Assembly: GCF_036621415.1 (NCBI RefSeq)
Contig: NZ_CP030941.1
Span: 744,001-808,000, forward strand
Direction: 5' to 3'
Source of the DNA: Nitratireductor thuwali
GTDB lineage: Bacteria; Pseudomonadota; Alphaproteobacteria; Rhizobiales; Rhizobiaceae
Length of the DNA: 64,000 nt
How positions within the stretch are numbered: the first letter of the stretch is position 1; every line of letters starts with the position of its first letter. Shown here piece after piece: positions 15,801 through 43,022 of the stretch. Under the pieces are notes generated by a model. The model saw only the letters and a program-made list of their open reading frames with translations, searched no databases and had not been told where the DNA came from. The position numbers and the translations under genes were made by a program.

Positions 15801-16733
15801 ATGTCCAGGCACACAGACCTTCTCCTGACCGCTATCGCCCCCGCCATCTGGGGCAGCACCTATCTGGTGACGACGGAGTTCCTGCCCGATGGCTATCCGC
15901 TGACGGTCGCCATGCTGCGCGCCCTGCCCGCGGGCCTGCTGCTGCTCGCCGTCATGCGGCAGCTCCCGCAAGGCGTATGGTGGGCGCGCGCCTTTGTGCT
16001 CGGTGGGCTCAACTTCACGATCTTCTGGTGGATGCTGTTCGTCACCGCCTACCGCCTGCCGGGCGGGGTGGCCGCTACAGTCGGTGCGATCCAGCCTCTG
16101 GTGGTCATTTTCCTCGCCCGGCTGCTCATCGGCGCGCCGATACGTTTCCTCGCCGTCGTCGCCGCCGTCGCCGGCATGGCAGGCGTGGCCCTGCTCATTC
16201 TCACCCCGCAGGCGGCACTTGACCCCGTGGGCATCCTCGCCGGCCTCTTCGGCGCGCTGGCGATGGCCGTAGGCACGGTGTTGAGCCGGCGCTGGCAGCC
16301 TCCTGTTTCGTCGCTCACCTTCGCCTCGTGGCAATTGACCGCCGGCGGCATCCTGCTCCTGCCCCCCGCGCTCTTTCTCGAACCGCCCCTGCCCGCCCTT
16401 ACGGGCGCCAACATTGCCGGCTTCGCCTATCTCGGCCTCATCGGCGCCGCGCTCACCTATTTCCTCTGGTTCCGCGGCATATCCAGGCTGGAGCCTTCCG
16501 CGGTGGCCCCGCTCGGCTTCCTGAGTCCTCTCACCGCCGTCATCCTCGGCTGGGCGATCCTCGGCCAGCACCTGACCCCGCCTCAGCTGGCCGGCATAGC
16601 CGTCGTTCTGGCCTCCGTCTGGCTGGCCCAGGCCGCCCAGCGCCCCGCCGTATCCTCCACGCCCGTCCACCGGCAGGAACTGCCCCTGCCGGCAACCCAG
16701 AAACCAACGCCCAGTACAGGAGCCGCCTCATGA
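15801..16733 (+). CDS. EamA/DMT-superfamily permease
   Basis: A 310-residue inner-membrane protein with two five-helix EamA repeats (about 5-140 and 150-285) and a low-complexity cytoplasmic tail. The first helix carries [15 protein letters not shown], typical of the group. Likely an exporter of a metabolite or drug-like compound, controlled by the divergent MarR protein. The stop overlaps the wrbA start by four bases. Confidence 0.9.
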
Positions 16734-17377
16734 CCCGCATACTCGTGCTCTACTATTCCGCCTACGGCCACATCGCTGAAATGGCTCGCGCCGTCACCGA
16801 AGGCGCGCGGGAGACCGGTGCGAGCGTCGTCCTGAAATGCATCCCGGAGTTTGAGGCGCGTGAGGCGCCTGCGGAAGGACAAGGCGACGTTCCGGTCGCA
16901 ACAATCGACGAGCTCCCCGACTATGATGCGATCGTCTTCGGCACGCCCACTCGCTTCGGAAATATGGCGGCACCGATGAAAGCTTTTCTGGATCGGTTGG
17001 GAAGCCTGTGGGCGCAGGACGCCCTTGTCGGCCGCGTCGGCGGCGTTTTCACCTCCAGCGGCAGCCAGCACGGAGGTCAGGAGCACACGCTGCTTTCCAT
17101 GCAGGCTTCGCTCATGCATCTGGGGATGGTCGTTGTCGGGCTGCCCTACACGTTCAAGGGCCAGACCAGAATGGACGAGATCACCGGCGGCTCGCCCTAC
17201 GGCGCCACCACCATTGCAAGCGGCGGGAATGGCGGCGATCGCCGCCCAAGCACCAACGAGTTGGAGGGTGCCCGCTTTCAAGGCGCACATCTGGCGCGCA
17301 TCGCCATCTCGATCCGAGGAACAGGCCCGATAGAAAAAGTTCAGCGGCAAGCCCTGCTTGCCAGGGCCGACGGTTGA
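16730..17377 (+). CDS. wrbA: NAD(P)H:quinone oxidoreductase, WrbA family
   Basis: A 215-residue flavodoxin-like FMN protein: phosphate loop [32 protein letters not shown], and the C-terminal [14 protein letters not shown] signature. Reduces quinones by two electrons and so limits redox cycling. The start is the ATGA overlap with the EamA gene; longer frames are artefacts. Being in an operon with a MarR-controlled exporter suggests a response to quinone-like or electrophilic compounds. Confidence 0.92.
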
Positions 17378-17395
17378 CACTCACCGCCACAGCTC

Positions 17396-17428
17396 CGAAA
17401 AAAAAGCCGGATCAAAAGATCCGGCTTT
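17396..17428 (-). terminator. Intrinsic terminator of AbcR, bidirectional with wrbA
   Basis: An 11 bp perfect stem (AAAGCCGGATC / GATCCGGCTTT, 17403-17428) with an AAAA loop. On the - strand it is followed by a run of eight Ts; on the + strand the same stem follows the wrbA stop with a short T-run, so it probably ends both transcripts. Confidence 0.9.
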
Positions 17429-17513
17429 AAAAATTGGAAGTGCCTGTTAAGGCGAAACCTCCAGAGGGGAACATTCACGGGGGCAAATGGGAGGAGAACG
17501 CGCCCCGCGAATG
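17396..17513 (-). ncRNA. abcR: AbcR-type trans-acting small RNA (alpha-r15 family)
   Basis: Read on the - strand, about 118 nt form three hairpins. Hairpin 1 pairs an AUUCGCGGGG-like arm with CCCCGUGAAU and exposes CUCCUCCCAU, an anti-Shine-Dalgarno loop. A second small hairpin uses CCUC/GGAGG. The third is a perfect GC-rich terminator followed by eight Ts. A -10-like CATATC with TTGTTA 17 bp upstream gives a start near 17513. Family knowledge: AbcR RNAs lie beside lsrB/vtlR in S. meliloti, Agrobacterium and Brucella and, with Hfq, repress many ABC-transporter mRNAs. The match in position, length and loop motif is strong; exact ends are inferred. Confidence 0.85.
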
Positions 17514-17558
17514 ATCAAGATATGAGCATTCGTTGCTCAAATAACAACCACCAGCTTT

Positions 17559-17575
17559 TGCATTCCACCCATGCA
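17559..17575 (-). promoter_or_regulatory. LTTR-like box upstream of AbcR
   Basis: An inverted repeat TGCAT-7nt-ATGCA containing the T-N11-A pattern of LysR-type sites. Its centre is about 54 bp upstream of the inferred AbcR start. In Brucella VtlR binds the abcR2 promoter directly; the LsrB/VtlR gene here ends 30 bp away. Binding is inferred. Confidence 0.6.
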
Positions 17576-17605
17576 CATTTGCATAGGTAAACAGGACATG
17601 TACCT

Positions 17606-18496
17606 TCAAAAGGTCCAGCCGCGTGACTTGGAGATCAGGAAATCGCGGAAAACCTGCAGTTTGGCCTGGTGTTTCATCGTCTCCGGATAACAGAAATAGG
17701 TATCGAAGGATGGCACCGCCGTCTCCGGCAGAAGCTGCACCAATCCGCTTTCCTTGCCTACGACGTAGTCGGGCAGCATGGCTATTCCGCCACCTCGCTG
17801 CACGGCGAGCTTGATCGACAGGATGTTGTTGATCTGCAGCGCGACGGCTCGCTTCGTGCCTTCCGGCCGGCCGGCCGTCTCCAGCCAGTTCATATCGCTG
17901 AGATGGGCGGGCACCGCTTCGCCGAAGGTCACGATCCGGTGGCGGTCGAGATCGTCGATGGAAGCCGGCTTGCCGTGGCGGTTCACGTAGCCGGGCGAGG
18001 CATAAAGATGGAAATGCACGGTGAAAAGCTTGCGCTGGATGAGGTCCGGCTGCTGCGGCTGGCGCATGCGAATGGCGCAATCGGCCTGGCGCATGGTCAG
18101 GTCCAGCTCTTCGTTGTCCAGGATGAGCTGAAGCTGTATCTCCGGATAAAGATCGCCGAACTCGGGCAGCCTTTCGGTAAGCCAGCCGGTGCCGAGGCCT
18201 ACCGTGGTTGAGACCTTGAGCATGCCTGACGGCCTGTCCTTTGTTTCCGACAGGCGCACCTTCACGCTTTCCAGCTTCATCAGGACTTCGTGGGCGGCGT
18301 TGTAGAGGATCTCGCCTTGCTCGGTCAGCACCAGCCCCCGCGCATGGCGATGGAACAGGGGAACGCCGACCTCCTGCTCCAGCGCGCTCACCTGGCGCGA
18401 GATCGCCGATTGCGAAAGATGCAGCGTCTCGGCCGCATGCGTAAAGGATCCCGCGGCCGCGGCCGCATGGAACACACGTAATTTATCCCAGTCCAA
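17606..18496 (-). CDS. lsrB: LysR-type regulator LsrB/VtlR
   Basis: A 296-residue LTTR: N-terminal helix-turn-helix (SQSAISRQVSALEQ, about 28-42) and a periplasmic-binding-like effector domain. The start MDWDKLRVFHAAAAAGSFTHAA and the end match the LsrB/VtlR proteins of rhizobia and Brucella, which govern redox balance, LPS and the AbcR RNAs. Only two cysteines are present (Cys140 and Cys269). It lies directly downstream of trxB, as in S. meliloti, and upstream of AbcR. Confidence 0.92.
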   Translation of the reverse strand: MDWDKLRVFHAAAAAGSFTHAAETLHLSQSAISRQVSALEQEVGVPLFHRHARGLVLTEQGEILYNAAHEVLMKLESVKVRLSETKDRPSGMLKVSTTVGLGTGWLTERLPEFGDLYPEIQLQLILDNEELDLTMRQADCAIRMRQPQQPDLIQRKLFTVHFHLYASPGYVNRHGKPASIDDLDRHRIVTFGEAVPAHLSDMNWLETAGRPEGTKRAVALQINNILSIKLAVQRGGGIAMLPDYVVGKESGLVQLLPETAVPSFDTYFCYPETMKHQAKLQVFRDFLISKSRGWTF

Positions 18497-18559: not shown

Positions 18560-19534
18560 CTATTCCGCTGCTTCGCGGTGCGCCTCCAGTCCGGCCAGAT
18601 ATTTCTCCGCCTCGAGGGCGGCCATGCATCCAAGTCCTGCCGCAGTCACCGCCTGGCGATAGATGTCGTCCGTAACGTCGCCGGCGGCGAAGACGCCCGG
18701 CACATCGGTGCGCGTGGAATTGGGCTCGGTCCAAAGATAGCCATTTGGCTTCTGCTTCAGCTTACCCTCAAATAGCTCGACCGCCGGTGCATGGCCGATC
18801 GCCACAAACACGCCGTCGACGGAAAGTTCGCTCACCGCACCGGTCTTCACGTTCCGCGCGCGAATGCCGTTGACGGAAGGCGGCAGCGGCGGCTTGGCCG
18901 GCTCGCCGACGACCTCGTCCACCACCATGTCCCACAGGACCTCGACATTGTCCCTGGCCAGAAGGCGCTCCTGCAGGATGCGCTCGGCCCGGAATTCGTT
19001 CCGCCGGTGGAGAACCGTCACCTTCCTGGCGAGGTTTGCCAGGTACAGCGCCTCTTCCACCGCCGTATTGCCGCCGCCGACGACAACCACGTCCTTGCCG
19101 CGGTAGAAGAAGCCGTCGCAGGTGGCACAGGCCGAAACGCCGAACCCCATGAAGGTCTGTTCCGAGGGAATGCCCAGCCACCTCGCCTTCGCCCCGGTCG
19201 CGATCACCAGCGCGTCGCAGGTATAGACCGTGCCCGAATCGCCCGTCAGCCGGAAAGGCCGCATGGAGATATCGACGTCGACGATGATGTCGTTGACGAT
19301 GTCCGTGCCGACATTCTCCGCCTGCGCGCGCATCTGCTCCATGAGCCACGGCCCCTGAACGGGGTCGGCAAAGCCCGGATAGTTCTCCACGTCGGTGGTG
19401 ATCATCAACTGGCCGCCCTGCTCCAGACCGGCGACCAGCACCGGCTTCAGCATGGCACGCGCCGCGTAGATGGCCGCTGTGTAGCCGGCCGGCCCCGAGC
19501 CGATGATGAGAACGGGCGCATGGCGGCTGGTCAT
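18560..19534 (-). CDS. trxB: Thioredoxin-disulfide reductase
   Basis: A 324-residue FAD/NADPH enzyme starting MTSRHAPVLIIGSGPAGYTAA (FAD-binding), with the redox-active pair Cys136-Ala-Thr-Cys139-Asp and NADPH site VVGGGNTAVEEAL. ATG at 19534 chosen because AAGGAA precedes it; the 31-residue upstream extension has no such site. Keeps thioredoxin reduced. Same strand as lsrB and only 63 bp upstream of it; divergent from lrp. Confidence 0.95.
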   Translation of the reverse strand: MTSRHAPVLIIGSGPAGYTAAIYAARAMLKPVLVAGLEQGGQLMITTDVENYPGFADPVQGPWLMEQMRAQAENVGTDIVNDIIVDVDISMRPFRLTGDSGTVYTCDALVIATGAKARWLGIPSEQTFMGFGVSACATCDGFFYRGKDVVVVGGGNTAVEEALYLANLARKVTVLHRRNEFRAERILQERLLARDNVEVLWDMVVDEVVGEPAKPPLPPSVNGIRARNVKTGAVSELSVDGVFVAIGHAPAVELFEGKLKQKPNGYLWTEPNSTRTDVPGVFAAGDVTDDIYRQAVTAAGLGCMAALEAEKYLAGLEAHREAAE

Positions 19535-19783
19535 GGGTGTTCCTTTCGTTGATGCGGACGGCCCGCGAAGTGGTCCTGATCTAAGTATTCCATATCCCTG
19601 CGTGCAAGGCGAAGAACGGTTTTCCAACAGCTACATCGGTTGCAGGCCGGCTTTTCACCAAGAAAGCGCGCGAAAGGACAGCCATAGCGTGCCTGCGCAC
19701 TTGGACTTGGCTGCGCCTTGCTGTAGTTTTATTTCACACATGCGACAGATTCGTGCGCAAACCGAGCAGAATTGGGGCAAAAG

Positions 19784-41771: not shown

Positions 41772-42593
41772 ATGCCTTGTCAATTCTTTGCCTATGTCGA
41801 TGAAGCCGGGGATGAAGGTTTCGGAAAGCTGCGAAATCCTGGGACCACAGGACAGTCACGCTGGCTTGGCCTTGGTGCGGTCATCGTTACGAGTGAAAAC
41901 GACCGTCTTATGCCGTCATGGCGCGATGAAATTATATCCCTGTTTCCTCAAAAGAAGAACCGCCGCGATCTGCACTTCAAGCATCTAAACCACAATCAGA
42001 GAGTTGCAGCATGCAATCTCTTGCGCGGGAAGCCATTGGGCATCTGTGTGGTTGCTTCGAACAAGGAGACGATCCTTGATAGTGAGGAAATATCGGTCTT
42101 TAAGCGGAAGCAGCATTTGTATAATTATCTCGTTCGCTTCCTGCTTGAGCGCCTCACAGCGGCTTGCGCGGAAAAGGCGCGCATTAATCGGAACGGACCG
42201 GCCAGCCTATTCGCAACGTTCTCTCGCCGCGCCGGGACCGACTATCAGAACATGCGCGAGTATTTCGAATTGATGCGAGACGGACGCGAGGTGATCCGTC
42301 CGGTGCGTTCGATAAACTGGGATATTTTTAATCCGGCCAATATTCGCGTGGAGAACCACGCCGTGCGTGCCGGTCTCCAGATTGCCGACGTCGCTACAAG
42401 CGCAACGTGCTGCGGATTGGAGCCCAACGAATTTGGGCACGTCGAACCACGCTATGCGCTGTCGATGAGAGATCGTTACCTAAAACACCGAAGCGCCATT
42501 TTGAACTGCGGCTTGACACTCATTCCACCATTAAACCGCTGCCCTCTCAACGACGAGCAACGATTGTTCATTCAAAACCTGATAAGAAGATGA
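41772..42593 (+). CDS. DUF3800-domain protein
   Basis: A 273-residue protein with the family's N-terminal motif FAYVDEAGDEGF, a central HFKHLNHNQR region and a late VRAGLQIADVATS, matching the RNase H-like arrangement of acidic residues proposed for DUF3800. Function unknown; members often sit in mobile or defence-associated regions. G+C is visibly lower than in neighbouring genes, suggesting transfer. No strong ribosome site at the start. Confidence 0.8.
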   Translation: MPCQFFAYVDEAGDEGFGKLRNPGTTGQSRWLGLGAVIVTSENDRLMPSWRDEIISLFPQKKNRRDLHFKHLNHNQRVAACNLLRGKPLGICVVASNKETILDSEEISVFKRKQHLYNYLVRFLLERLTAACAEKARINRNGPASLFATFSRRAGTDYQNMREYFELMRDGREVIRPVRSINWDIFNPANIRVENHAVRAGLQIADVATSATCCGLEPNEFGHVEPRYALSMRDRYLKHRSAILNCGLTLIPPLNRCPLNDEQRLFIQNLIRR

Positions 42594-43022
42594 CAGGCCC
42601 CCGGCCCCCTGGTGCACATCGCAAAGGATGCTGCTGCCTATTGGCAACTCGGGGTAGCTCCGGCGCTTGCCTGCCACTGATAATATGGCATAGGCACAGT
42701 CTCTTTTCAAGGGAAAGTTGGAAAAAGATATTGTGTTTCAAAGCCTTACCTAACCCGTTGAACGGAATCACATTTTTCCGCTCATTCTTTCTATAGCGGA
42801 TGCTGCAACTGAACAGGCTTACGGCAGTGGTCATCCTGGACTTCATGTCTGCGGTAGGTGAGTCGGCGCTCTTTGAAGGCCACCAGCATCCTAGCCGGGC
42901 GGCAAATCGCTTTCTCTCCCGCAAGGCGAGAGATAAGGCGCTGCGGCCTGCCGGGAATGACGGTGCGTCGGTTGGGCGGGTTCGCTATGCTGCTGGCGCT
43001 GAAAACGGCTGGGATGGCGGGC
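42594..43022. other. Intergenic region, lower G+C, no gene seen
   Basis: 429 bp after the DUF3800 gene. It begins A/T-rich (42700-42790 includes CATTTTTCC and TTTCTATAG) and becomes G+C-rich after 42880, which probably marks the edge of the transferred islet. No frame here has family features. Confidence 0.4.

Follow-up and report, generated by a model that had tools for sequence, protein, structure and literature searches.

AbcR (ar15) is a known family of bacterial small RNAs with a presumed role in silencing genes of nutrient uptake. According to published work, the S. meliloti small RNAs AbcR1 and AbcR2 carry two 8-nt targeting motifs, the anti-Shine-Dalgarno stretches aSD1 (CUCCUCCC) and aSD2 (UUCCCCUC), and abcR1 has an LsrB site at -61 to -49 (PMC8844928). 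The sequence GCAT-N3-TG-N3-T is given as the VtlR site of Brucella and A. tumefaciens in PMC7486931, and work on Brucella places DUF1127 genes together with AbcR2 under the control of VtlR (PMC12595884). Other papers describe the activation of NfeR1 by LsrB in S. meliloti (PMC10746234) and, in Rhodobacter, the co-transcription of a DUF1127 gene with CcsR RNAs, a pairing named the CIN1 locus that is reported to be frequent in alphaproteobacteria (PMC10253847).

Here we analyzed a window of 64,000 nucleotides (the whole stretch of DNA under study) from a presumed member of the Chelativorans genus, whose genome comprises 4.75 Mb in 3 contigs. The gap between wrbA and lsrB was measured as 228 bp (17378-17605), as originally predicted, and contains on its - strand what is very probably a single AbcR1 (ar15) gene, activated by LsrB and silencing the mRNAs of uptake genes. 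Computation provided the basis for this reading, namely the family membership, the single copy, the sequence, spacing and conservation of the upstream box, and the complementarity to Shine-Dalgarno sequences of uptake genes.

The locus shares with S. meliloti AbcR1 (alpha-r15) the RNA family, both anti-Shine-Dalgarno motifs, the lsrB neighbor and, very nearly, the distance of the putative LsrB site (-62 to -50 here vs. -61 to -49 there), and differs from it by having no tandem AbcR2 beside the copy and by its other neighbor (wrbA here, SMc01226 there); at the present locus, a dyad fills the -35/-10 spacer. With the VtlR-activated Agrobacterium AbcR1 and Brucella AbcR2 it has in common a homologous regulator and the consensus GCAT-N3-TG-N3-T, but it is a single copy. 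The DUF1127 genes that are VtlR co-targets in Brucella (PMC12595884) likely have a counterpart here, and an ar14 RNA lies behind this likely co-target. A second locus with an LsrB site resembles NfeR1 and the DUF1127-CcsR arrangement of CIN1: downstream of its DUF1127 gene it has an RNA that carries repeated CCUCCUCC motifs and matches ar14. As ar14 is a separate small RNA family (RF02344), this locus serves as LsrB regulon context for AbcR1. The analysis extends the well-studied riboregulator AbcR1, its regulator and its probable targets to a little-studied genus. No literature on AbcR in Chelativorans was found in the collection searched, the older strain name BNC1 being sought inside PMC3712013 only (0 matches).

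The features are as follows (a dot stands for no assigned strand):

16730-17377, + strand: wrbA, convergent neighbor (NF002999, 281.8 bits, cut-off 141)
17398-17428, - strand: AbcR1 intrinsic terminator with an 11-pair stem plus T8 (terminator scan, sequence)
17399-17512, - strand: AbcR1 (ar15) small RNA gene (Rfam RF02345, fold, custom model)
17464-17471, - strand: aSD2, UUCCCCUC, between hairpins 1 and 2 (sequence; unpaired in the predicted fold)
17488-17497, - strand: aSD1, CUCCUCCCAU, loop of hairpin 1 (sequence; unpaired in the predicted fold)
17520-17548, - strand: putative core promoter, GTTGTT-N17-TCATAT (by eye)
17523-17539, dot: second dyad, located in the -35/-10 spacer, TGAGCA-N5-TGCTCA (sequence)
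17562-17574, - strand: putative LsrB/VtlR site, GCATGGGTGGAAT, at -62 to -50, inside the dyad 17559-17575 (consensus match)
17580-17583, dot: third TGCA half-site of the LsrB element (sequence)
17606-18496, - strand: lsrB (vtlR), gene of the LysR-type regulator that presumably activates AbcR1 (LysR family, homology, synteny)
18560-19627, - strand: trxB, thioredoxin reductase, presumably in one operon with lsrB (TIGR01292, 392.2 bits, cut-off 343.45)
C1:3933709-3934085 (L136 1343-1719), - strand: LsrB site followed by the DUF1127 gene and the ar14 RNA

Family membership, fold and terminator

The Rfam model RF02345 (ar15) matched 17512-17399 on the - strand with 60.2 bits (cut-off 40, E 8.7e-10) over its whole length (model positions 1-112), so that the covariance-model match on which the AbcR identity depended was found. 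A custom model of 29 sequences, which include the present copy and five short second copies, scored AbcR1 at 125.2 bits. This stretch is a clear copy of the ar15/AbcR family and, as a known kind of RNA, largely an ordinary find. The single-sequence fold was predicted to have the three - strand hairpins originally proposed (-50.8 kcal/mol, z -7.08), and 0 of 200 shuffles were as stable. The anti-Shine-Dalgarno loop of the same proposal corresponds to CUCCUCCCAU at 17497-17488 (- strand), a stretch that contains the published aSD1 and is unpaired in the predicted loop; aSD2 is identical to its published counterpart. The invariance of CTCCCA and TTCCCCTCTG among the relatives arises by selection, as the pattern by which these were chosen (for the box count and for the model) requires both. 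In the RNAalifold consensus of the 29 sequences, the terminator hairpin was recovered and hairpin 1 was not, five bases of the aSD1 stretch pairing instead with GGAGG of hairpin 2, an alternative that would hide aSD1.

The RNA ends in an 11-pair stem (17428-17403, - strand) followed by T8 as read in the sequence, in agreement with the predicted terminator. We doubt the further proposal that this hairpin serves as a terminator for wrbA too: TTTAAAAATT, the sequence after the stem on the + strand, makes a poor T tract, and the scan of the locus gave a terminator-like site on the - strand and none on the + (wrbA) strand. A hairpin between convergent genes could also be read as nothing but a bidirectional terminator of wrbA and lsrB, with no small RNA in the gap; we consider this extremely improbable, since the covariance match extends over all 112 positions, two more hairpins and two published anti-Shine-Dalgarno stretches are present, and the T tract on the wrbA strand is poor.

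Putative LsrB site, promoter and relation to the lsrB message

The dyad TGCAT-N7-ATGCA, originally predicted upstream of the RNA, was found at 17559-17575 with its center 55 nt before the ar15 start (17512); it occurs once in the window vs. 0.07 times expected, and at least once in 7 of 100 shuffles. The dyad proposed as a LysR-type box is there, but the published LsrB/VtlR consensus, which is asymmetric, describes the element better: it matches at 17574-17562 (- strand), and a further TGCA half-site, the third, lies at 17580-17583. Counted from the ar15 start at 17512, the putative site GCATGGGTGGAAT is a perfect GCAT-N3-TG-N3-T that matches the published sequence and nearly the published distance. 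Among the best 80 of 572 lsrB relatives, AbcR was recognized by the anti-Shine-Dalgarno pattern downstream of lsrB in 69 (flank of up to ~1.5 kb) and was not found by this pattern in the available flank of the other 11. In these 69 relatives, whose records were not de-duplicated and include many close Mesorhizobium, the LsrB site was sought 78-84 nt ahead of CTCCCA; all 69 carried it with at most one mismatch, 59 of them without any (offsets 79-83), compared with 1/552 exact and 6/552 within one mismatch in eight other offset windows, and with 0/69 for the reversed consensus. The two-site core was present in 59/69 AbcR1 loci and the full TGCA triple in 15. Of six lsrB loci from Brucella/Ochrobactrum, five (L101-L104, L106) had no AbcR detectable by pattern within ~1.5 kb downstream.

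The putative core promoter was assigned by eye against CTTGAC-N17-CTATAT, the reference promoter quoted in PMC8844928; a generic sigma-70 scan called no promoter at the locus. CATAT, the presumed -10 element, was found in 95 of 108 AbcR copies. The second dyad (17 bp) fills the -35/-10 spacer. Paired changes across 77 promoters preserved its symmetry in 286/462 cells vs. 262 expected from column composition, and across 44 non-redundant promoters in 143/264 vs. 128 (13 of 108 rows without CATAT were dropped); with slid centers the counts were 65-111/462 and 39-72/264. The symmetry is kept in relatives, far above the slid controls but only slightly above column composition. As an operator of a regulon the dyad was rejected, because the genome contains a single instance of its pattern and also a single one of the reversed control.

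The lsrB gene sits behind trxB and upstream of AbcR1. It is the conserved neighbor: when 30 ar15 loci (out of 73 places) were examined, 25 had lsrB within ~1.5 kb, unlike wrbA, which adjoined AbcR1 in 2 of 110 loci searched (the present genome and one relative) and is probably outside the AbcR1/LsrB system. The LsrB protein belongs to the LysR family and is below the curated cut-off of every model among the 25 listed of 56, so that its name is based on synteny and on 72% identity to Brucella/Ochrobactrum homologues. It has two cysteines, 140 and 269, which by position, unaligned, probably match C144 and C273, the conserved pair of the A. tumefaciens redox switch (PMC11975290); the cysteine probably matching 269 is described there as required for peroxide resistance. 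Among the best 80 of 572 LsrB homologues, 41 had cysteine 140 only and lacked the second cysteine near 269.

The box follows the lsrB stop after only 31 nt, in which the scan of the window found no terminator-like site, and the trxB-lsrB message may consequently end in AbcR1. From this one could argue that the trxB-lsrB mRNA supplies AbcR1 mainly as its 3' UTR, processed from read-through, and that the AbcR1 output follows the lsrB mRNA besides or instead of a promoter of its own. In a crude terminator scan of the 69 loci, the spacing was <70 nt in 18, 16 of which had no terminator-like site in between, and all 69 had one after the RNA, which would agree with such processing. The conserved LsrB site just ahead of the RNA and the frequent CATAT argue for an own promoter, as does S. 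meliloti AbcR1, reported to be an independent transcription unit by 5'-RACE (PMC3712013). An obligatory 3' UTR would also fit poorly with the gaps of ≥ 700 nt in many Mesorhizobium loci and with the terminator-like sites between lsrB and the box in 30/69 loci (28 of them in gaps >100 nt, including that of Chelativorans multitrophicus, L034). Overall, we regard a chiefly 3' UTR origin as very improbable and prefer an AbcR1 gene activated by LsrB.

Copy number across genomes

A single ar15 match at E 0.001 was obtained in the whole genome, and the search for a second AbcR suggested with the original prediction, which had seen only one, returned nothing credible genome-wide: with Rfam at E up to 10, the next best match had only 17.8 bits (E 0.70), and with the 29-sequence model at most 19.6 bits (E 0.17), in neither case beside AbcR1. 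A second AbcR in the genome and a tandem AbcR1/AbcR2 locus were therefore rejected. When 101 genomes (the own included) were searched with stricter filters, by which weak matches are lost, 53 had an ar15 match at E 0.001 and 40 one over the cut-off. Tandem pairs within 250 nt, as read from the match coordinates, were found in 7 of the 53 (G018, G024, G026, G029, G032, G044, and G060). Within the genus of Chelativorans, all 16 genomes had at least one ar15 copy and none a tandem, which makes a lone AbcR1 the usual state in the genus. Such a single-copy genome offers a simpler setting for the study of AbcR1 than redundant tandem systems.

The present copy scores lower (60.2 bits) than the best copies of the seven tandem-copy genomes (101-127 bits), as might be expected of a degenerate or silent remnant whose single copy is decaying. 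The lsrB-type copies of the genus range from 33.5 to 60.2 bits with the present one at the top, so the lower score reflects lineage-specific sequence; the anti-Shine-Dalgarno motifs, stem, terminator and promoter site are all intact and a copy is kept in 16/16 genus genomes, which leaves decay with a negligible probability compared with a functional AbcR1.

Four of the 16 genus genomes (G001, G003, G007, and G011) contained a second, shorter AbcR copy far from the first, and no exact LsrB site was present in the 120 nt upstream of these. Short second copies without an exact LsrB site were recorded as L024, L122, L123, L124, and L014. An extra ar14 match was located on the same contig as the short copy in G001 (~8.7 kb away), G003 (~7.5 kb) and G007 (~0.8 kb, a match below the cut-off), which hints at a shared movable segment.

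A second putative LsrB-site locus and candidate mRNA targets

When lengthened to GCAT-N3-TG-N3-TGCA, the site pattern has 10 matches in the genome vs. one for the reversed pattern. Seven of these sites lie inside long frames, so the LsrB consensus alone is not specific; the others are at AbcR1, at L116 and before a DUF1127 gene. The L116 site (GCATAGCTGCCATGCA, C1:1666154) overlaps an unsupported 202-aa frame and was not counted as an LsrB target; no Rfam RNA was found there at E 0.1, and the surrounding DNA was matched in 2 of 16 genus genomes (the own included), i.e., it is poorly conserved. The DUF1127 site is exact and located 104 nt upstream of a 46-aa gene (C1:3933867-3933974), which is followed by an ar14 RNA with 91.7 bits (cut-off 58.8) that carries repeated CCUCCUCC motifs. 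It is the only ar14 of the genome over the cut-off (second match, 36 bits), and of the four DUF1127 matches in the genome, the remaining three had no LsrB site just upstream. By coordinates, ar14 lies behind the best DUF1127 match in 16/16 genus genomes; the exact LsrB site precedes the pair in 10 of these, and by eye the other 6 have GCAA for GCAT. The AbcR1 and DUF1127-ar14 promoters of the present genome share the TGCA triple, with spacings of 8 + 13 nt in one and 9 + 13 nt in the other.

A regulon with DUF1127-ar14 agrees with the published LsrB/VtlR targets, as AbcR, DUF1127 genes and NfeR1 are among these. We take NfeR1 to be an ar14 RNA. No link between LsrB or VtlR and a DUF1127-ar14 unit was found in the literature searched. 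The element common to both loci suggests that the DUF1127 targets of VtlR in other genera may have a downstream RNA as well.

Tentatively, and with rather less than even likelihood, AbcR1 could be at once the tail of the trxB-lsrB message and an LsrB target, with LsrB driving both AbcR1 and DUF1127-ar14 through the three-half-site element and with the spacer dyad adding a contact for a further regulator or a second one for LsrB. If so, a redox-linked LysR regulator would command two separate families of anti-Shine-Dalgarno RNAs simultaneously, of which one could also arise when the regulator's own message is processed, and the mRNA of the activator would end at the terminator of the small RNA.

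In the preferred reading of an LsrB-activated AbcR1, we infer from the sequence that the RNA is transcribed, that LsrB binds and activates its promoter, that targets are repressed and that Hfq may be needed. LsrB, supplied by the upstream trxB-lsrB unit, would most likely bind the TGCA-rich element at about -62 to -50 and activate the weak sigma-70 promoter of AbcR1; both anti-Shine-Dalgarno stretches of the ~114-nt RNA would then pair with ribosome-binding sites on uptake mRNAs, many of which encode periplasmic binding proteins, so that translation of these mRNAs is blocked. The likely chain would run from an oxidative or growth signal to LsrB, then to AbcR1 (and DUF1127-ar14), and result in fewer uptake proteins.

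The pattern TGGGAGGA-N4-9-ATG, complementary to aSD1, was present 37 times in the genome vs. 2 for its reverse, and the control AAGGAGGA-N4-9-ATG 21 times vs. 6. After dropping frames <60 aa (7/37 and 7/21, respectively), ABC, TRAP and TTT uptake proteins recognized by Pfam made up 16/30 of the genes after TGGGAGGA vs. 3/14 after AAGGAGGA (Fisher p 0.058), in a grouping made post hoc, once the gene lists were known, and leaving out the MFS permease L202. For ABC proteins alone the counts were 12/30 vs. 1/14 (p 0.035), and for uptake proteins among genes with a Pfam match 16/24 vs. 3/11 (p 0.065). This modest enrichment would fit the known role of AbcR and is weak as proof, as binding-protein genes may have strong Shine-Dalgarno sequences for other reasons.

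Elsewhere in the window, a DUF3800-VII RNA was detected at 42587-42675 on the - strand (Rfam, 59.4 bits, cut-off 36.2); its 3' end shares a few positions with the end of a 273-aa frame in convergent orientation (41772-42593, + strand) that may be the DUF3800 gene.
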